Source: Calothrix membranacea FACHB-236
GTDB lineage: Bacteria; Cyanobacteriota; Cyanobacteriia; Cyanobacteriales; Nostocaceae
Length of the DNA stretch: 64,000 bases
Assembly (NCBI RefSeq): GCF_014696315.1
Contig: NZ_JACJPX010000030.1
Span: 1-64,000 of the forward strand
Direction: 5' to 3'
The notes under the pieces were generated by a model. The model saw nothing but the letters and a program-made list of their open reading frames with translations, made no database searches and was not told the origin of the DNA. Of the stretch, positions 47,522 to 55,905 are shown in pieces. Made by a program: the position numbers and the translations under genes. Position 1 is the stretch's first letter. Each line of letters opens with the position of its first letter.

Positions 47522-49642
47522 ATGCTGGGAAACACACTTGTAGGAAGATACCAAATTATTAGCCACTTGGGTGGTGGGGGGTTCGGGGAAACCTTTGTTG
47601 CTTGTGATACTCATTTACCGGGATCTCCTCAATGTGTTGTCAAAAAACTCAAGCCTCAGGCAAATGATCCAGTAACTTTAGAAACGGCTAGACGTTTATT
47701 TGATACAGAAGCTCAAGTTCTGTATAAATTAGGTAGTCATGATTGTATTCCTCAACTTTTAGCATATTTTGAGGAAAATGCAGAGTTCTATCTCGTACAG
47801 GAATTTATTGAAGGACACAATCTCAGTCAGGAATTAACACCAGGGAAAACTCTGACTCAAACTGAGGTAATTTCTTTGTTGATGGAGATTCTCGAAATTT
47901 TAAAGTTTGTTCATCAACAAAAGGTAATTCACCGCGATGTCAATCCCTGCAATTTACTTAGACGTAAATCAGATGGGAAGTTAGTCTTAATTGACTTTGG
48001 TGCAGTTAAACAAATTTCTACACAAGTTATTACGCCACAAGGACACACTAAATCTACTGTTGCTATTGGTACTCCTGGATATCTCCCAGGTGAACAAGCA
48101 CAAGGAAACCCCAAATTTAGCAGTGATATATATGCGGTGGGGATAATCGCACTACAAGCGCTGACAGGATTACCACCGGAACAATTAGAAAAAGATGCCG
48201 ATACTAATGAAATTATCTGGCAAAATCATACCAAAGTATCGCCAGAGTTCGCTCAAGTTTTAAACAGAATGGTATGTTATGATTTTCGCCAGCGCTACAG
48301 TTCAGCCACAGAAGCATTACAAGCACTCCAAGAGTTAACACAGCCAGCCTCTAAAACAATCGCTTTAACTCCGGTGCTAGCATTTAAAAATTTGCCAAAT
48401 CCTAAATTAAAAAAAGAAATACTGCACAAGATTTTAGCAGCCACATTTATTTTAGGCGTAAGTGCGGCAATTGGGATATTTATTATTGATGGTATTCATA
48501 CAAATAATGCTACAGAATTATATAAACAAGGTAATACATTATATGATTTACAACGCTATCAAGATGCATTAGCTGTATATGATAAAGCAGTTAATATTAG
48601 ACCAGCTTACCCTCAAGGGTGGTATGGAAAAGGCAGAACTTTATCAGAATTAAAGCAATATAAAGAAGCGCTAGCAGCTTATGATAAAGCTATTCAAATT
48701 CTGCCAGATTATGTAGAAGCTTGGAGTGCTAGAGGTTTAGCTTTAGCAAATTTGCAGCGTTACCAAGAAGCGATCGCCTCTTTTGACAAAGCTTTACAAT
48801 TAGAAGGTAACTCTCCTGAAATTTGGAATGCTAAAGGTGAAGCTTTGAGTAGTTTAAAACAATATGACAATGCTATCAAAGCTTACGATAGGGCAATTGA
48901 ATTACAAAAAAATTATGAGATTGCTTGGGAAAATAAGGGTTTAGCGCTACATAATTTAAAACGCTATGACGACGCAATTACAGCATACGATAAAGCCATA
49001 GAATTAACGCCAGACGATGCCTCATTCCGATATAATCGCGGCAATGCTTTAGTAAATATAGGGCGCTACGAAGATGCTTTAAAAGATTATGATCGGGCAG
49101 TACAATATAAATCTGATTATTACCAAGCTTGGTTATCGAGAAGCAATATTCTCATGAGTTTGCGACGTTATCCAGAGGCAATAGAATCATTTGATTGGGT
49201 AATTAAATCTAATCCCGGAAATTTCCAAGCATGGTATAGCAGAGGTTGGGCGCTACATCAAAGCCAACGCTATCAACAAGCAATTGATTCTTATAATAAA
49301 GCCATTGCTTTGCGGCGTAACGATTACCAAGTTTGGTATAACCTAGGAAATTCGCAATACAATTTACAGAAATATGAAGATGCGATCGCATCCTATAATC
49401 GGGCAGTTCGTTACAAACCAGACCATTACGAAAGCTGGTATAGCAAAGGAAATGCCCTAGTAAACTTGAAACGCTATCAAGATGCGATCGCGTCTTATGC
49501 ACAAGCCATCAAATACAAGCCTGACTATCAACAAGCCATCGAAGCTAGCAAGCAAGCACAAAATCAACTACAAGCTGAAAAATCACAGCCTCTAGTTATC
49601 CCCATCATTACCATTCCCAATCCTCTTGCGCCAAAACAATGA
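47522..49642 (+). CDS. Ser/Thr protein kinase with C-terminal TPR repeats
   Basis: Membrane-anchored Hanks-type kinase of 706 residues. The kinase domain (about 8-275) shows the glycine loop LGGGGFGET, VKKL lysine, catalytic loop HRDVNPCN and IDFGAVKQI. A transmembrane helix lies near 305-325 (ATFILGVSAAIGIFIIDGI), followed by about ten TPR units (YDKAIxLxPDY...). In the catalytic loop the usual Lys of HRDxKxxN is Asn, and the P+1 region reads GYLPGEQ; related cyanobacterial kinases tolerate such changes, so activity is not excluded. It faces a signalling operon on the other strand. Confidence 0.93.
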   Translation: MLGNTLVGRYQIISHLGGGGFGETFVACDTHLPGSPQCVVKKLKPQANDPVTLETARRLFDTEAQVLYKLGSHDCIPQLLAYFEENAEFYLVQEFIEGHNLSQELTPGKTLTQTEVISLLMEILEILKFVHQQKVIHRDVNPCNLLRRKSDGKLVLIDFGAVKQISTQVITPQGHTKSTVAIGTPGYLPGEQAQGNPKFSSDIYAVGIIALQALTGLPPEQLEKDADTNEIIWQNHTKVSPEFAQVLNRMVCYDFRQRYSSATEALQALQELTQPASKTIALTPVLAFKNLPNPKLKKEILHKILAATFILGVSAAIGIFIIDGIHTNNATELYKQGNTLYDLQRYQDALAVYDKAVNIRPAYPQGWYGKGRTLSELKQYKEALAAYDKAIQILPDYVEAWSARGLALANLQRYQEAIASFDKALQLEGNSPEIWNAKGEALSSLKQYDNAIKAYDRAIELQKNYEIAWENKGLALHNLKRYDDAITAYDKAIELTPDDASFRYNRGNALVNIGRYEDALKDYDRAVQYKSDYYQAWLSRSNILMSLRRYPEAIESFDWVIKSNPGNFQAWYSRGWALHQSQRYQQAIDSYNKAIALRRNDYQVWYNLGNSQYNLQKYEDAIASYNRAVRYKPDHYESWYSKGNALVNLKRYQDAIASYAQAIKYKPDYQQAIEASKQAQNQLQAEKSQPLVIPIITIPNPLAPKQ

Positions 49643-49789
49643 ATTATACTATTTTGGATTTTAGATTTTGCGTTCGTGTATCTCAGTGAGAGTTTCCCAC
49701 TTCCAAGTTCGGTGGCTTTGACAACACACCATGCCAACAGAGATTCCACATCTTGCTAGCAAAACATTAATCTGTGCGTTCACTAATTT

Positions 49790-50836
49790 TCACCTTTTAT
49801 AAATAACGGGAGTTAAATTCTCCGCTATACCATGTAATTGAATTTCGGTACAGCCAAACTGGTAAGCTTTCTCTATGGAACGATTGGCACCCAGCGCTTT
49901 GTAAAATCCCACAGAAAATGCGATCGCAGCTTGATCGCCAATTAAATAATTCATACCAATCACAAACGGAATGTATTTTGCAATAGCTTCCGCTTGAGTC
50001 TTGGAATAACAAGCATTCAAGACTACACAATTTACCTGGTCTTCTACAAGTTCAAATAATGAAGCTAAAGCATCAGGCTTAATCGGTTGAATTTGACCTA
50101 ACTCATTTTCTACATACAATTCCCCAGTATTCATACCATGTCCAGAAAAATGGACAATATGAGGCTCAATATCCAGTAAAGCCTGACTGATATCCCCAGG
50201 ACGTACCGACAGGCGTTGTTCTAGTAAAAATTTGTCTCTTTGTTTAGCTAATTGCAATCTTTGCTGAATCTCTCGCAACTCTTGTCCTAGACGTAACCTA
50301 GCAGCATCAGTAGGGTCGGATGATAAAAACAAGATTTTCAACGGATTAGCTGCGATCGCAAGTTGTTGATTCTCATCACTTGAACTTTTGAAAAGTGCTT
50401 GATGATTCCGTGATTTTTGGAGTTCATTATTTAAAATATCCTGAACTTTATTAATAAAATTTTTACTGTCAAAATCGCTTTTGCTAAAGAAATCAGATGC
50501 TTTATATTCCATCAATAAATCGCGAACATCTTGAGTGTTTACCACAGGTGTTCCACTGACAGCAATAGCTGGTATCTGCCGAGCATAAGCAAGTTCAACT
50601 AAATGTATTCCTAACTTTTGACGACGGGAAAGAGATGAATCGCCCAAACCAATGTCAGTAATCAACAAATGCCAATCGCTATCTCTAAAAGCTTTAGAAG
50701 CTTCATCAAAAGTCCTGACAATCTGAATGATATCCTGAGGATGACCAATATTGCGTAAAGCTGTCCGAATCTTGCCTTCAAGGATATCTTGCCAATCTGA
50801 ATCATCCTCAACCAGAAGAACTTTGAAAAATATCAT
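49790..50836 (-). CDS. Response regulator with CHAT caspase-like protease output
   Basis: A 348-residue fusion. Residues 1-135 form a receiver (LLVEDD, phospho-Asp61 in LLITDIGLGD, Lys119 in FFSKS). Residues 165-348 form a CHAT domain, a clan CD peptidase-like fold: KILFLSSDPTDAARLRL at its start, His233 in HIVHFSGHG and Cys276 in VVLNACYS, the expected catalytic pair, both intact. AGGAGG precedes the ATG. The gene lies 47 bases after a three-GAF histidine kinase gene on the same strand, so the kinase probably phosphorylates this receiver and so controls the protease. The substrate is unknown. Confidence 0.92.
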   Translation of the reverse strand: MIFFKVLLVEDDSDWQDILEGKIRTALRNIGHPQDIIQIVRTFDEASKAFRDSDWHLLITDIGLGDSSLSRRQKLGIHLVELAYARQIPAIAVSGTPVVNTQDVRDLLMEYKASDFFSKSDFDSKNFINKVQDILNNELQKSRNHQALFKSSSDENQQLAIAANPLKILFLSSDPTDAARLRLGQELREIQQRLQLAKQRDKFLLEQRLSVRPGDISQALLDIEPHIVHFSGHGMNTGELYVENELGQIQPIKPDALASLFELVEDQVNCVVLNACYSKTQAEAIAKYIPFVIGMNYLIGDQAAIAFSVGFYKALGANRSIEKAYQFGCTEIQLHGIAENLTPVIYKR

Positions 50837-50883
50837 CGGTTCCTCCTTGCCACCACTTATGGTAATTAATGCCTAGCTTCTGC

Positions 50884-53673
50884 TTAAGTTTCTGGTTTAT
50901 AGACTGGCAAGATCATAATAAAATTAGTCCCTTGATTCAGTACACTATTCACATTTAAATAACCTCCTAAACGTTCTACGTACAATTTTGTCCACCACAG
51001 TCCGAAACCCATACCTCTTCTCGCTGTTTTAGTGGTGTAATCAGGCTGGAAAATCTTTTCTAGATTTTCGTAAGCGATACCTACGCCAGTATCACATATT
51101 CGCACTTCTACCCAACACTGTATTTCTCTTTGGACACTAGTGCCAATAATCGATACCCTACCACCTTGGGGCATTGCTTCCACAGCATTTTGGATTAAGT
51201 TATCAAAAACATATATTAATTGTTGTTCACCACCTAATACCTTGGGTAAATCAGTTGCTATCTCTATATATGTAGTGATGTTCGTAGGTATGGACATTTT
51301 AGCTAGTGCATTTACCGCTATGTCAGATAAATCGATGGCATGAGGCTTTTCTTGAATCCAAATTTTCATTCGTTCAGCACTTTGCAAAACCTTATCTGCT
51401 CTTGATACAATTCGCTGTGCTTTATTCTTGCTGTTCTCATCACCTTCATCCAAAATATCTTGTGCCCAGACTCGGATTGCACCCACATCATTATTCATAC
51501 GATGCACTAACGGGCCAGCCAAATCACCCAAAGTGACCATTGTTTCCATATTCACCAGTTGTCTTTTGTTTTCTAAATTTTGAATACCAATTACTGCTTG
51601 GTCTGCTAAGGCTTCTAACATCCGCTGGTGTCTCTGGTTGAAAGCAGAAATATACTGGCTTTCTACGTTCAGTACACCTAGTAAGTGCTTATCTTTGTCT
51701 AGGAGTGGCACACATAACTCAGAATGGATATTGGGAAAGTAAGCCTGGTAACGCGGATCGGTTTGCACGTTATTTACCAATGCTGACTGGCGATTTCTGG
51801 CTACCCAACCTGTAATTCCTTCATATATACTATTGCGTCTTTCGATGAGGTCAATGAAACGATTGACAGCATACTTGGCTTTAGTAACTAGCTCCTGCTG
51901 ACTAGGATCTAGTAAGCGGATATTACCGACATCAGCGCCACAAATTTGCACTGCTCGCTGTACAATCAGCTTCAAGAGTTCCTTTTGATCTAGAGTCGTA
52001 ATAATTTTGCGATCAACATCGCTGAGAGTTGCTAGCCAGCGTTGATTTTTAATGGCGATCGCAGCTGAAGAAGCTAGAGTTTCAATCATCTTTTTCTCAT
52101 CTTCAGAAAAACTGTGAGGTCGGCGGTAATTAATAAACATTACTCCGACTATATCTTTATCAGCTTCTAGCAGGACACCCGCTACGGAATGAATTTTTTC
52201 CCTATGAGTAAAAGCTGAATTCTGAAATATTGGTTCTTGTTCCAGTTGTGTAGCATAAACGTTTTCTCCACGCTGAATCAGCAAAAAAGGGACATTTTGT
52301 CCAATCATTTCATCTTGCATTTTCTGCTCTTGCCTTAATCTTCCTGCTGTTTTTGGAGGAGTCGTAAATTGCCTTTCAGTCTGGATATATTCGTAGATAT
52401 TCACTACATCTGCACCCAAAACATTCAAAGTATTCCAAGCAATACGACGCAAGAGATCGGCTTCTGGTATACGACCAAGGGATTGAGTGACCGAGTAAAG
52501 AGTTGCTAGCTGACGTGTTTCATCACGCATTTGTTGGATTCTGATCGTGTGCCAAATTGCATCAACAGCCCAGTGCCGGACAAATAATTCTACTAAGCGC
52601 AACTTGCGTGTAGATAATATATAGCTGCGCCGAAAAACAACATAAAGTACTCCTTCTTTATTCTCAACCTGTAATGGAAAAGCTGCCATTGCTTTTATCC
52701 CAGCGGAAAAGGCTTGGGGATTAAGCTTTGCCATTTCCAGATTGTCGTGACCTTGAGATAAGTCTGGGATAAACTTGTACTTTCTTTCCCGAATCGCTTG
52801 TCTTCCCAGCCCATTATGACGCGGCGGACAAGCCTTCAGAAATTGCTTCCCAATGCCGCGAGAAAATACTTCATAAATGTAACGGCCCTGTTCTGCATTT
52901 GGCTCGTATAAAAAATGCAGCGTAGCTGCATCAGCATCGAGAATTTGTTTGGCTTTCTCTGCGATCGTTTCTAATACCCGAGGTAGTTGTGCTTGCCAAA
53001 TATCTAAAGATTGCCGAGCAATATATTGTAGTAATCGTGATAAGATTTGCTCTTCAATTCGCCTTTCTGGAGAACTATAACCCGCTTCTACTGTACCAAT
53101 AACTACCACTTCTGGATTGCGCCCCTCAGGTTGCAAGTCTGGTTGTAGAAGCAATTTATAAATCTCATGCTGTCTTGCGCTACTCTCTTCAAATTGAGGA
53201 CTGATTTTCTGCCATTTACAGCGCTCATACCAATTTTTGATGACTTTACCGTTATAATCCTGAACCAGGACTATGGGTGTAAATACACGAACTAACTTTT
53301 CATGACCATACTCTTGATAAATCCAGCGATCAAAGCGTTTGTCCCATCCAGATATAATCTCAGTCTGTTGAGTGAGAACTATATCTGCTTGAATATCTCT
53401 TAGTTCTGGGTCTGGTTCCAAGTAATGTTTGGCCAAATTAGCCCATACTACTCCTGTGCCACTTCCATGTACGCCTTGAATAATATTTTTTTCTAGAGAA
53501 ATTAAAGATATGTTGGCAAAATCAAAACCAAGTGCCAGGATGTTTTGACAGACTGCTTCTAGAATATCTTCCAGCTTAAACAGTTTTGAGGTAGCTCGTT
53601 CTACCTGGTCTAAAGCCTCCAAAATAGATGTCTCAAAAGCTTTTAACTGTGATTTTCTGCGAGCAGCCACCAT
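50884..53673 (-). CDS. Soluble multi-GAF histidine kinase
   Basis: A 929-residue cytoplasmic kinase with no membrane segment and no receiver of its own. At least three GAF-like regions are visible: one near the N-terminus (LFKLEDILEAVCQNILALGF...), one at about 225-385, one at about 390-540, and one ending FNQRHQRMLEALADQAVIGI. The dimerisation helix has the phospho-His in LAGPLVHRMNNDVGA. The HATPase has N-box DNLIQNAVEAMP, G1 DTGVGI and MGFGLWW. Start at ATG 53673 after AGAGGTG. It is the first gene of a two-gene operon with the receiver-CHAT protease. The GAF ligands are unknown. Confidence 0.92.
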   Translation of the reverse strand: MVAARRKSQLKAFETSILEALDQVERATSKLFKLEDILEAVCQNILALGFDFANISLISLEKNIIQGVHGSGTGVVWANLAKHYLEPDPELRDIQADIVLTQQTEIISGWDKRFDRWIYQEYGHEKLVRVFTPIVLVQDYNGKVIKNWYERCKWQKISPQFEESSARQHEIYKLLLQPDLQPEGRNPEVVVIGTVEAGYSSPERRIEEQILSRLLQYIARQSLDIWQAQLPRVLETIAEKAKQILDADAATLHFLYEPNAEQGRYIYEVFSRGIGKQFLKACPPRHNGLGRQAIRERKYKFIPDLSQGHDNLEMAKLNPQAFSAGIKAMAAFPLQVENKEGVLYVVFRRSYILSTRKLRLVELFVRHWAVDAIWHTIRIQQMRDETRQLATLYSVTQSLGRIPEADLLRRIAWNTLNVLGADVVNIYEYIQTERQFTTPPKTAGRLRQEQKMQDEMIGQNVPFLLIQRGENVYATQLEQEPIFQNSAFTHREKIHSVAGVLLEADKDIVGVMFINYRRPHSFSEDEKKMIETLASSAAIAIKNQRWLATLSDVDRKIITTLDQKELLKLIVQRAVQICGADVGNIRLLDPSQQELVTKAKYAVNRFIDLIERRNSIYEGITGWVARNRQSALVNNVQTDPRYQAYFPNIHSELCVPLLDKDKHLLGVLNVESQYISAFNQRHQRMLEALADQAVIGIQNLENKRQLVNMETMVTLGDLAGPLVHRMNNDVGAIRVWAQDILDEGDENSKNKAQRIVSRADKVLQSAERMKIWIQEKPHAIDLSDIAVNALAKMSIPTNITTYIEIATDLPKVLGGEQQLIYVFDNLIQNAVEAMPQGGRVSIIGTSVQREIQCWVEVRICDTGVGIAYENLEKIFQPDYTTKTARRGMGFGLWWTKLYVERLGGYLNVNSVLNQGTNFIMILPVYKPET

Positions 53674-54144
53674 AGCACCTCTCTTTGTTTGCCTTATGAG
53701 TATAATGCTAGACAATAGCTCGCTTGAGTATCAAAGCTGTTGTATGTAATATCCTCAATCTCCAAGCTGAGACTTTGATACAATAAAGATTTGAGGAATT
53801 TTATGCTCAAAAAGATTTAAACAAAATGTTTGTCGATTGCTAAGACTGACAAATATATTTGTCATTTAATTACATACTCTAGCCAGAGAAAAATAAGTAA
53901 TATCAAATTGTCAGAGTTAGTATTGTTTGAGACTTCTGGAACTGTCTAATAGCAAGGATTTATAAACTTTGCTTATCTATAAATTTCGATAAATCTTGTA
54001 AGCTGTTCAGCCTACAAGATTAATGTATTCATGAATTGCTATCAATCATTTTTCTTTATTTGTATTAACACAGCAATAATGGCGCACAGCTGTGCGCCAT
54101 TATTGAGATTTAAAGAATTTTGCACGTATAGCTTGCGGTATTGA
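53674..54144. other. AT-rich gap with a promoter and a long palindrome
   Basis: TATACT at about 53698-53703 (minus strand) is a candidate -10 for the kinase-CHAT operon. Apart from the palindrome at 54075-54104 no other structure or gene is seen. Confidence 0.45.
54075..54104. terminator. Perfect 30-bp palindrome, possible bidirectional terminator
   Basis: AATAATGGCGCACAG (54075-54089) followed immediately by its complement. It lies 41 bases after the stop of the Ser/Thr kinase gene on the minus strand. The stem is strong but the following bases are not a clean T-run. Confidence 0.5.
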
Positions 54145-55905
54145 CTAATATAAATTGTCAATCTTACTAGCTGAATAGTAACGGGGATCGGCTTTCGTCT
54201 TTTTTGAGGCTGAATTTACTTTTGATACAGCTACTTTACTACTTGGCCCTCGCAGACGTTGCTTTTGAGCATACTCATTGAGTTTCATTTGCGCTTGTGC
54301 GTAAACAGTAGTATTTTTCGGAACCTTGTGCAGGAATTTGACAGCATCATCAAATTGACCAGCAGAGGCTTTGTTGTAAGCTTTTTGTAAAAAGTAAGTA
54401 GCTCGAATTTGCTGCTTTTTATCGTACTCAGCCAATTTTTGTTGCACGATCACACCAGCAGAACTTTCTTTAGGAATTTGACGCAGATAGCTGATAGCAG
54501 TAGAAAAATCTCTATTATTTGCGCTTTCGTAAGCTTTAGCTAATAAATCTTGCGTTTGTGCTTCTATGTTGACTTGTGCCTGCTGCACTAGTTTATCTGT
54601 TTTAGACTGCCAATATAAAATATCAGGAACTTTAGGCGCGATCGCTAGTACATCTGACCATCTACCAGCTTGAAAGGCGGTTTCTGCAAATTGGTATTGT
54701 TCAGCTGCTACTTGCCATTGCTGTTGCCATTCATCAACGGTGGCTTGAGCTTCTGGATAAATTTTACTTTGGGCGGGAATTGATTTAACGAGTGCGATCG
54801 CTTCGTCTAAATCTCCTGATTGATATTCTTCAGTAGCTTTATATAAAGTTTCTTTCTCTGAGTAAGCTGGAGAAGTTGTAAATAATGAATATACTCCCAA
54901 TCCCAGCAATACAGAATTAGCAGCGATACCTACTCTCATTCCTGTGAGTAGTGGCGCAGACTTCTGTGGTGGTACAGGAGTTTCAACAATATTGCTATTG
55001 CTAGGTTCTTCGGGTGGTAGAGACAGGCTATATAGTGCTTCTAGTTGGGGTAACTCATTTTCCCACCGCATTTCTTGGATTATTTGCAGTACCTCACCCG
55101 CAGATTGAAAGCGGTCTTCGTAATCGTAGCGGATCATTTGGCTGAGAATAGCAGCTAAATAATCATTAACTTGTGTTTGAGGAGTATGCCAAATAATCTC
55201 ATTTGTATAAGGATCTAATTTAAATTGTAATGGTGCCATTCCGGTTAAAGCTTGGATGGCAATTATACCTAAAGAATAAATATCGCTATTAGGCTGTGTT
55301 TGACCAATAAATTGTTCTGGTGGGATATAACCCAATGAGGTAACCGGAACATTCTGAATAGGTAATTCTGTATCCTCACCAAAATCAACTGGCTGGATGG
55401 AACCAAAATCAATCAGTACTAATTTGCCATCCGAAGCACGCCTAATTAAATTTTCTGGTTTGATATCGCAATGGATAACTCCCTGAGAGTGAACAAAATC
55501 CAGAATTCCTAAAACATCTTCCAAAAAATCTACTACTTGGGTTTCACTCCAAATATCACCACATTTTTTATTGATGGGTAGTTCTTCAGTTAATGAATGT
55601 CCTTCAATAAACTCTTGCACTAAATAGAAACGTTCGTTTTCCTCAAAGCAAGCAATGAGTTGGGGAATTTGGTCATGGCATTCCAAACGCTTGAGAGTTT
55701 CGGTTTCAGTGAGAAAACGTAACCTTAAGTCATCCAGGTAACTAGGTTGAGAATTGCTCACCTTGAGCTGTTTAACAACGCACTTAGGGTTTTCGGGGTA
55801 ATCTATGTCTACGGCAATATAGGTTTGTCCAAATACTCCTGCACCTAGGCTTTGAACGATTTGGTAACGCCTTTGTAGTACTTTACCGATCATGTGGTGG
55901 ATCAT
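54145..55905 (-). CDS. Ser/Thr protein kinase with TPR-like C-terminus
   Basis: A 586-residue membrane-anchored Hanks-type kinase. Kinase domain about 10-275: LGAGVFGQT loop, VVKQLK lysine, catalytic loop HCDIKPEN (Cys in place of Arg of HRD), LIDFGSIQP and GYIPPEQ. A transmembrane helix lies near 330-350 (VLLGLGVYSLF). The outside part is a set of degenerate TPR-like helical repeats (AKAYESANNRDFSTAISYLRQIP). HCDxKPEN makes it a non-RD-type kinase, often not regulated by activation-loop phosphorylation. It belongs to the same local signalling group as the kinase at 47522. Confidence 0.92.
   Translation of the reverse strand: MIHHMIGKVLQRRYQIVQSLGAGVFGQTYIAVDIDYPENPKCVVKQLKVSNSQPSYLDDLRLRFLTETETLKRLECHDQIPQLIACFEENERFYLVQEFIEGHSLTEELPINKKCGDIWSETQVVDFLEDVLGILDFVHSQGVIHCDIKPENLIRRASDGKLVLIDFGSIQPVDFGEDTELPIQNVPVTSLGYIPPEQFIGQTQPNSDIYSLGIIAIQALTGMAPLQFKLDPYTNEIIWHTPQTQVNDYLAAILSQMIRYDYEDRFQSAGEVLQIIQEMRWENELPQLEALYSLSLPPEEPSNSNIVETPVPPQKSAPLLTGMRVGIAANSVLLGLGVYSLFTTSPAYSEKETLYKATEEYQSGDLDEAIALVKSIPAQSKIYPEAQATVDEWQQQWQVAAEQYQFAETAFQAGRWSDVLAIAPKVPDILYWQSKTDKLVQQAQVNIEAQTQDLLAKAYESANNRDFSTAISYLRQIPKESSAGVIVQQKLAEYDKKQQIRATYFLQKAYNKASAGQFDDAVKFLHKVPKNTTVYAQAQMKLNEYAQKQRLRGPSSKVAVSKVNSASKKTKADPRYYSASKIDNLY

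Follow-up and report, generated by a model that had tools for sequence, protein, structure and literature searches.

What is a two-component system for when it ends in a caspase-like protease, given that the usual end point of such systems is transcription or a signalling enzyme? This question is raised by a gene pair in a 64,000-nucleotide stretch of Calothrix membranacea FACHB-236 (contig NZ_JACJPX010000030.1, positions 1 to 64,000 of the forward strand; the window), in which a gene for a sensor histidine kinase precedes a gene for a receiver domain fused to a CHAT protease domain. The parts of this pair, their linkage and conservation, the exchange of the output domain among relatives, and the presence or absence of the pair as a unit can be read directly from the genomes compared. 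The original prediction saw here a phosphorelay-gated protease. Since the outputs are interchangeable and the pair comes and goes as a unit, the interpretation moves away from a regulated protease and towards a conflict module that swaps its effectors. An effector-swapping two-component module, probably serving cell death or defence, is the most likely answer.

The kinase and its receiver-CHAT partner

The pair was originally described as a soluble kinase with several GAF domains, 47 bases ahead of a receiver-CHAT fusion, and the coordinates, the minus strand, the Pfam matches, and the hydropathy all agree with that description. The kinase gene lies upstream, at a spacing of 47 bp, and its longest frame opens at a TTG codon at position 53715. 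Pfam recognises GAF_2 in three stretches of the protein as well as HATPase_c (E 4e-19), while the secondary structure of the predicted model suggests to us a fourth, N-terminal GAF-like domain with no Pfam match. Approximate borders of the four GAF-like domains are residues 28-228, 230-400, 405-549, and 563-700. Helices of the dimerisation and histidine phosphotransfer region carry H724 in an HRMNN motif, and the catalytic, ATP-binding domain spans about 780-925. The kinase model (pLDDT 74) finds its best fold matches among phytochromes and histidine kinases. No 19-residue stretch exceeds 1.45 on the Kyte-Doolittle scale and no transmembrane segment was found; thus, the kinase looks soluble, and a membrane sensor was ruled out. 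Moreover, all 13 aligned kinases have H724, N727, and N728 without exception; a kinase piece from genome G186, outside that alignment, keeps the His and lacks N727.

The identity of the receiver is settled by its predicted fold, which matches solved receivers despite the divergence of its sequence. The model of the receiver-CHAT protein (pLDDT 82.8) resembles many solved receivers, such as 9of3 with a TM-score of 0.80 by target length. Residues E10, D11, D61, and K119 are invariant in 15 of 15 aligned receivers, and S94 is present in at least 90% of rows. In the window protein itself, D61, S94, K119, H233, and C276 were read directly from the sequence.

The C-terminal part had been expected to adopt a CHAT fold, and this was borne out: Pfam places CHAT (PF12770) at residues 149-324 (E 2e-6, above the gathering score), and the predicted model matches the SAVED-CHAT structure 8tl0. 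This structure is found by sequence (E 3e-12) and by fold (E 9e-13); no other PDB entry matches in sequence below E 0.1, and among the fold matches it ranks first. The further expectation that homologues would keep His233 and Cys276 held as well, with both catalytic motifs in 10 of 10 receiver-CHAT proteins examined; comparison CHATs from other proteins have the His motif in 29 of 30 cases and the Cys motif in 30 of 30. Ten of 31 other CHAT open reading frames (ORFs) from the same search were scanned, some of them cut by locus ends. Three were fused to AAA_35, one to nSTAND1, one to NNH5/NACHT, and two to pentapeptide repeats, and three contained CHAT only. This indicates that the CHAT module is a general plug-in effector.

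The ratio of nonsynonymous to synonymous substitution rates (dN/dS), computed separately for the kinase, the receiver, and the CHAT domain against three relatives, is 0.08-0.16, the third relative having a dS above 1.5 and thus lying close to saturation. By this comparison of coding sequences, all three domains are under purifying selection. The ORFs are therefore not due to chance, and that explanation was ruled out.

Linkage, mobility and exchange of the output

How tightly does the kinase belong to its partner? A search with the receiver alone (E <= 1e-15) found relatives in 13 of 217 family genomes; in a phylum sample of 386 genomes, part of which is shared with the family set, two gave a match at E <= 1e-12. 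The kinase N-terminus is present in 20 of the 217. The 18 places of the family search amount to 15 loci, because two matching contigs of one genome each carry two receivers. At every one of the 15, the gene immediately upstream, on the same strand, encodes a homologue of the kinase. Three extra loci have the same order: those of Tolypothrix sp. FACHB-123 and Symploca sp. SIO2C1, from the kinase search, and that of Planktothrix agardhii No.2A, from the plasmid search, located on 'plasmid p1', a linear 7254-bp record labelled plasmid. In total, the foreseen linkage is seen at 18 of 18 distinct loci, with two kinases damaged. Both genes are decayed in G026 (L065), and the G186 kinase has an internal stop. 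The gap between kinase and receiver is 34-481 bp over the 17 pairs other than that of G026, and 44-51 bp in 11 of them. Kinase finds that lack a receiver partner comprise, besides six longer kinases, the frame of G003 (L086), which breaks at a contig end, the decayed pair of G100 (apparently Calothrix HK-06; L079), and the second copy in G006. A Crocosphaera copy (L090) ends at a contig end. Remote partial matches (L094, L095, L131-L133) were excluded from the counts.

The pair also behaves as a unit within the genus. Two Ser/Thr kinase genes that flank it are present in 8 of 8 genus genomes, with the cassette or without it. They are adjacent (gap ~125-370 bp), with the pair absent, in five genomes (G001, G003, G004, G005, G006) and far apart in one (G007); in the two others, that of the window and G002, the cassette stands between them. 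It consists of ~255-300 bp upstream of the kinase, the kinase, the receiver-CHAT gene, and ~118 bp downstream. In G006 the site is empty, yet a copy of the cassette exists elsewhere (89% DNA identity), and its similarity to the window stops at 49795 and 53901, near the same borders. The empty sites and this displaced copy indicate that the pair is gained, lost, or moved as a whole. No direct or inverted word of 9-20 bp is common to two 160-bp stretches taken from the ends of the cassette, which holds no extra ORF of at least 80 aa that could be a transposase. Loss in G003 and G005 through recombination between short repeats is possible.

What stands behind the receiver varies. CHAT had been proposed as the output of the system; this holds at 12 of 18 loci, that of the window among them; the relatives also use Peptidase_C14 (caspase) at three loci and TIR, EAD8, and an AAA/nSTAND ATPase at one each. 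A CHAT-only system is ruled out by these caspase, TIR, EAD8, and STAND outputs. Among the CHAT loci, one is decayed, and the Planktothrix one (Pfam E 1.5e-23) clearly belongs to another CHAT subfamily; five receiver-CHATs were assigned by Pfam and the remainder by BLAST similarity. The caspase outputs keep their His and Cys motifs in 3 of 3 cases.

On its well-supported branches, the kinase tree forces at least two changes for the caspase output and at least three for CHAT, and the TIR locus is nested within a CHAT clade (support 100/99). A tree of CHAT domains, built from 10 receiver-CHATs and 30 CHATs of other proteins, forces at least four changes, so that the CHATs themselves have been captured, or lost, several times. 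For this tree, 31 of 33 loci gave a usable CHAT, and L005 was then dropped because it is identical with receiver-CHAT G000b, the forced changes being five before and four after. None of six N-terminally extended comparison CHATs examined had receiver similarity (best E 0.97). As judged from these alignments, the kinase and CHAT trees require repeated exchange of the output; the receiver tree is too weak to decide.

In Mastigocoleus testarum (L091, 10827-13866), the kinase is followed by a lone receiver, a receiver-EAD8 protein, an EAD8-Trypsin_2 protein, and a small 138-aa protein. Going by its domains, the receiver-EAD8 protein could be an adaptor able to recruit the trypsin-like protease in trans.

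Table 1. Positions of the pair, its domains and its surroundings in the window.
Feature	Position	Strand	Description	Basis or context
Receiver-CHAT gene	49790..50836	minus	348 aa; receiver (~1-140), linker, CHAT (~165-348)	ORF list, Pfam, predicted model, fold match
Sensor histidine kinase gene	50884..53673 (from ATG)	minus	929 aa	Pfam, predicted model, alignment, hydropathy
Receiver domain	50417..50836	minus	E10, D11, D61, S94, K119	
CHAT caspase-like protease domain	49793..50344	minus	H233 (HFSGHG), C276 (NACYS)	
Inserted cassette	49672..53972	.	4301 bp; TTTGC at both junctions	Empty site in close relatives G003, G005
Flanking Ser/Thr protein kinase genes	47522-49642 and 54145-55905		One with TPRs	PADLOC PD-T4-6 over kinase domain

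Known systems and neighbouring genes

Is the pair a known system in another form? Detocs has the layout DtcA-DtcB-DtcC, in which DtcB is a lone receiver and DtcA has a TPR-like sensor. The window pair and the 17 further loci resemble it in joining a histidine kinase and a receiver-effector fusion in an operon, and the Mastigocoleus locus also has a lone receiver between the kinase and the receiver-EAD8 gene, comparable to DtcB. In contrast, the window pair lacks a lone receiver gene, such a gene being seen only in L091/L092, and its sensor is made of GAF domains. According to the available portions of three papers (PMC11249213, PMC10952713, PMC9966839), Detocs is a family of defensive two-component systems with three genes, and the effector described best is an ATP-degrading PNP. 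The outputs found here are instead CHAT, C14, TIR, STAND, or EAD8.

The PADLOC profile PDC-M60C matches the window protein weakly (E 0.004) and over the receiver part only, and relatives' receivers are also weakly matched. Its C-terminal half matches a PNP protein; with its weakly receiver-matching N-terminal part, PDC-M60C is probably the Detocs effector. Since the lone receiver is absent, a PNP effector is lacking, PADLOC gives no more than the weak receiver match, and the sensor differs, the system was ranked as a variant of the same kind as Detocs and not as a member. By analogy of layout, Detocs appears to be its closest working counterpart, nearer than Craspase, without the pair being a demonstrated Detocs.

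The original prediction had turned to Csx29 as a precedent. The parallel stands insofar as SAVED-CHAT (8tl0) and TPR-CHAT/Csx29 (Craspase) are CHAT proteases gated by a separate sensing part, although Detocs is the closer comparison. In these systems the gate is a cyclic nucleotide or a guide RNA, whereas here it would be a receiver with a histidine kinase. The PADLOC SAVED_CHAT match covers only the CHAT part of that profile (309-452 of 498), and Pfam gives CHAT alone in the window protein, with no SAVED domain.

Other comparisons concern CHAT proteins and conflict systems. HetF is likewise a cyanobacterial CHAT protein, and the window CHAT weakly matches its model NF045509 of NCBIfam (E 1.6e-8). 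With 33 bits against an equivalog cut-off of 1200, an orthologue of HetF was ruled out; moreover, the part of PMC8406250 available describes HetF with transmembrane and TPR regions and no receiver. In Thioploca ingrica, and also in Beggiatoa relatives, a REC gene adjoins a TPR-CHAT gene in the excerpt consulted of PMC5108060; these are separate genes, unlike the receiver-CHAT fusion. The EAD8, STAND, TIR, caspase, TRADD-N, and CHAT parts of the EAD/STAND/TRADD-N conflict systems of multicellular prokaryotes, as outlined in the available sections of PMC7159879 and PMC8195603, recur at relatives' loci. Receivers occur without histidine kinases in those same sections, whereas the kinase is adjacent in the window system. 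Neither a receiver-CHAT nor a phosphorelay-caspase system was found in the literature searched, which lay mostly outside subscription papers.

Of 10 ORFs near the pair scanned with PADLOC, four gave a match: both flanking Ser/Thr kinases (PD-T4-6), one TPR protein, and one ORF that matches DEDDh/BrxH weakly. The PD-T4-6 matches were set aside as general kinase matches, such kinases being very numerous here and both of these occurring in all eight genus genomes. Conflict-type neighbours stand at four relatives' loci (L066, L081, L091, L093). L093 has a caspase, a CHAT, and an nSTAND1-WD40 protein, L066 a CHAT-EAD10, and L091 an EAD8-trypsin. At L081 (5909-10362), the receiver-TIR gene is followed by a TRADD-like_N protein with DUF1815 and two AAA_35 ATPases.

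Several further arrangements were noted among relatives. In the second copy of G006 (apparently Nostoc sp. T09; L076, 7959-11087), the multi-GAF sensor continues directly into an nSTAND1 ATPase, which replaces the kinase core. A longer kinase of the same family in G024 adjoins a CHAT protein without a receiver (L125, 3402-8081). At L131, L132, and L133, remote kinases with one GAF stretch in common adjoin small ORFs that start like lone receivers (ILFIDDE, ILFVDDE). Upstream of a second cassette type in several genomes lies a long protein with no Pfam match (L085, 4293-6845, complete at 850 aa; L063, 1-2322). Finally, L023 (1540-3606) encodes an NLR-like protein with CHAT, NNH5, an inactive restriction-nuclease domain, and NACHT, and its CHAT is 64% identical to that of the window.

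Weighing the interpretations

How would such a module work? The multi-GAF kinase would read a cytoplasmic signal, perhaps phage infection or another intracellular stress, autophosphorylate at H724, and transfer its phosphoryl group to receiver residue D61. In this state the receiver would change shape or pair up and thereby turn on the CHAT protease, phosphorylation acting as an activator rather than through relief or repression. The active protease would then cut cell proteins, and the resulting toxicity would lead to growth stop or cell death, possibly with an anti-phage effect. In other words, the kinase and receiver would form a constant chassis, and the effector would be exchangeable (CHAT, caspase, TIR, STAND, or EAD8). 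Such a chassis, combined with the patchy distribution and the mobility of the pair, agrees with abortive defence or programmed death by a system that works in the manner of Detocs.

A number of observations weigh against this interpretation. For the window protein, Pfam reports no Response_reg up to E 0.1, and among eight homologous receiver proteins scanned it reports this domain in five, below the gathering score; in the Planktothrix receiver, outside the 15-row alignment, N replaces D11, so that one acidic pocket residue is lost. At E 0.1 the kinase has no match among the PADLOC models. No receiver partner stands in the flanks read of six longer kinases (G024, G194, G059, G149, G135, G058), the G194 flank ending at a contig end on its downstream side; two of the six were scanned, both having pentapeptide repeats, and the others were grouped by length, three also by tree. 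A second kinase tree, built without the long EAD8 row and the interrupted kinase of G186 and with TIR and STAND unlabelled, gives two changes for caspase and two instead of three for CHAT, and the weak receiver-only tree forces no more than one change per output. The sample is small, with 18 loci only and some tree rows long-branched. As to surroundings, no clear defence island was found around the pair (10 nearby ORFs scanned with PADLOC, four matching), and ordinary genes surround other relatives' loci among the part of the neighbours scanned. One pattern scan of viral contigs gave no relative, on which ground a phage-borne module was rejected, and a single record was found among plasmids.

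The best surviving alternative, although an unlikely one, is a regulatory, non-lethal proteolytic two-component system, in which CHAT cleaves one or a few regulators that steer development, division, or responses to light or nutrients, as HetF may do. The accessible part of PMC8406250 reports that HetF of Anabaena is a CHAT protein required for heterocyst formation and division, and that an active-site mutation abolishes its function. The weak match of the window CHAT to the HetF model points the same way, as does the fact that the majority of scanned neighbours are ordinary genes. A single regulatory cleavage, however, leaves unexplained why, in relatives, this kinase-receiver pair comes with a caspase, TIR, STAND, or EAD8 output, and occurrence in 13 of 217 family genomes with a site empty in 5 of 8 genus genomes suits a core developmental gene badly.

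It is improbable that the receiver is a ligand-binding or dimerisation switch triggered by something other than phosphorylation, with the adjacent kinase mainly a phosphatase or dispensable. Conflict systems have been described in which receivers occur without a histidine kinase, as far as the available portions of PMC8195603 and PMC7824862 go, with Cam2 as an example in that of PMC11229360; the missing acidic residue of the Planktothrix receiver also suits this view. Yet the same portions stress the absence of a kinase, whereas here one is adjacent at 18 of 18 loci, and the phospho-acceptor His, the receiver Asp and Lys, and the acidic pair are conserved together.

Passive pairing, in a cassette that is selfish or shuffled at random and has no shared role in immunity or death, is very improbable: it would suit the mere 5-bp repeat at the junctions, the varied neighbours, and the decayed copies in G026 and Calothrix HK-06, whereas strong purifying selection acts on all three domains, no further ORF in the cassette could be a transposase, and the outputs that are swapped come from families of effectors or adaptors familiar from conflict systems.

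The effector-swapping module would, on somewhat better than even expectation, represent a family, so far without a name, of mobile suicide or defence systems under phosphorelay control in cyanobacteria. One multi-GAF kinase-receiver chassis would serve no fewer than five types of output, lethal or adaptor in nature (CHAT from two subfamilies, caspase, TIR, a STAND ATPase, and EAD8 recruiting an EAD8-protease), linking two-component signalling to the STAND/EAD/CHAT death network. If this is true, phosphorelays would be wired directly to cell death in multicellular bacteria, and the trigger of cyanobacterial caspase-like proteases would become testable through one kinase, one Asp, and one Cys.

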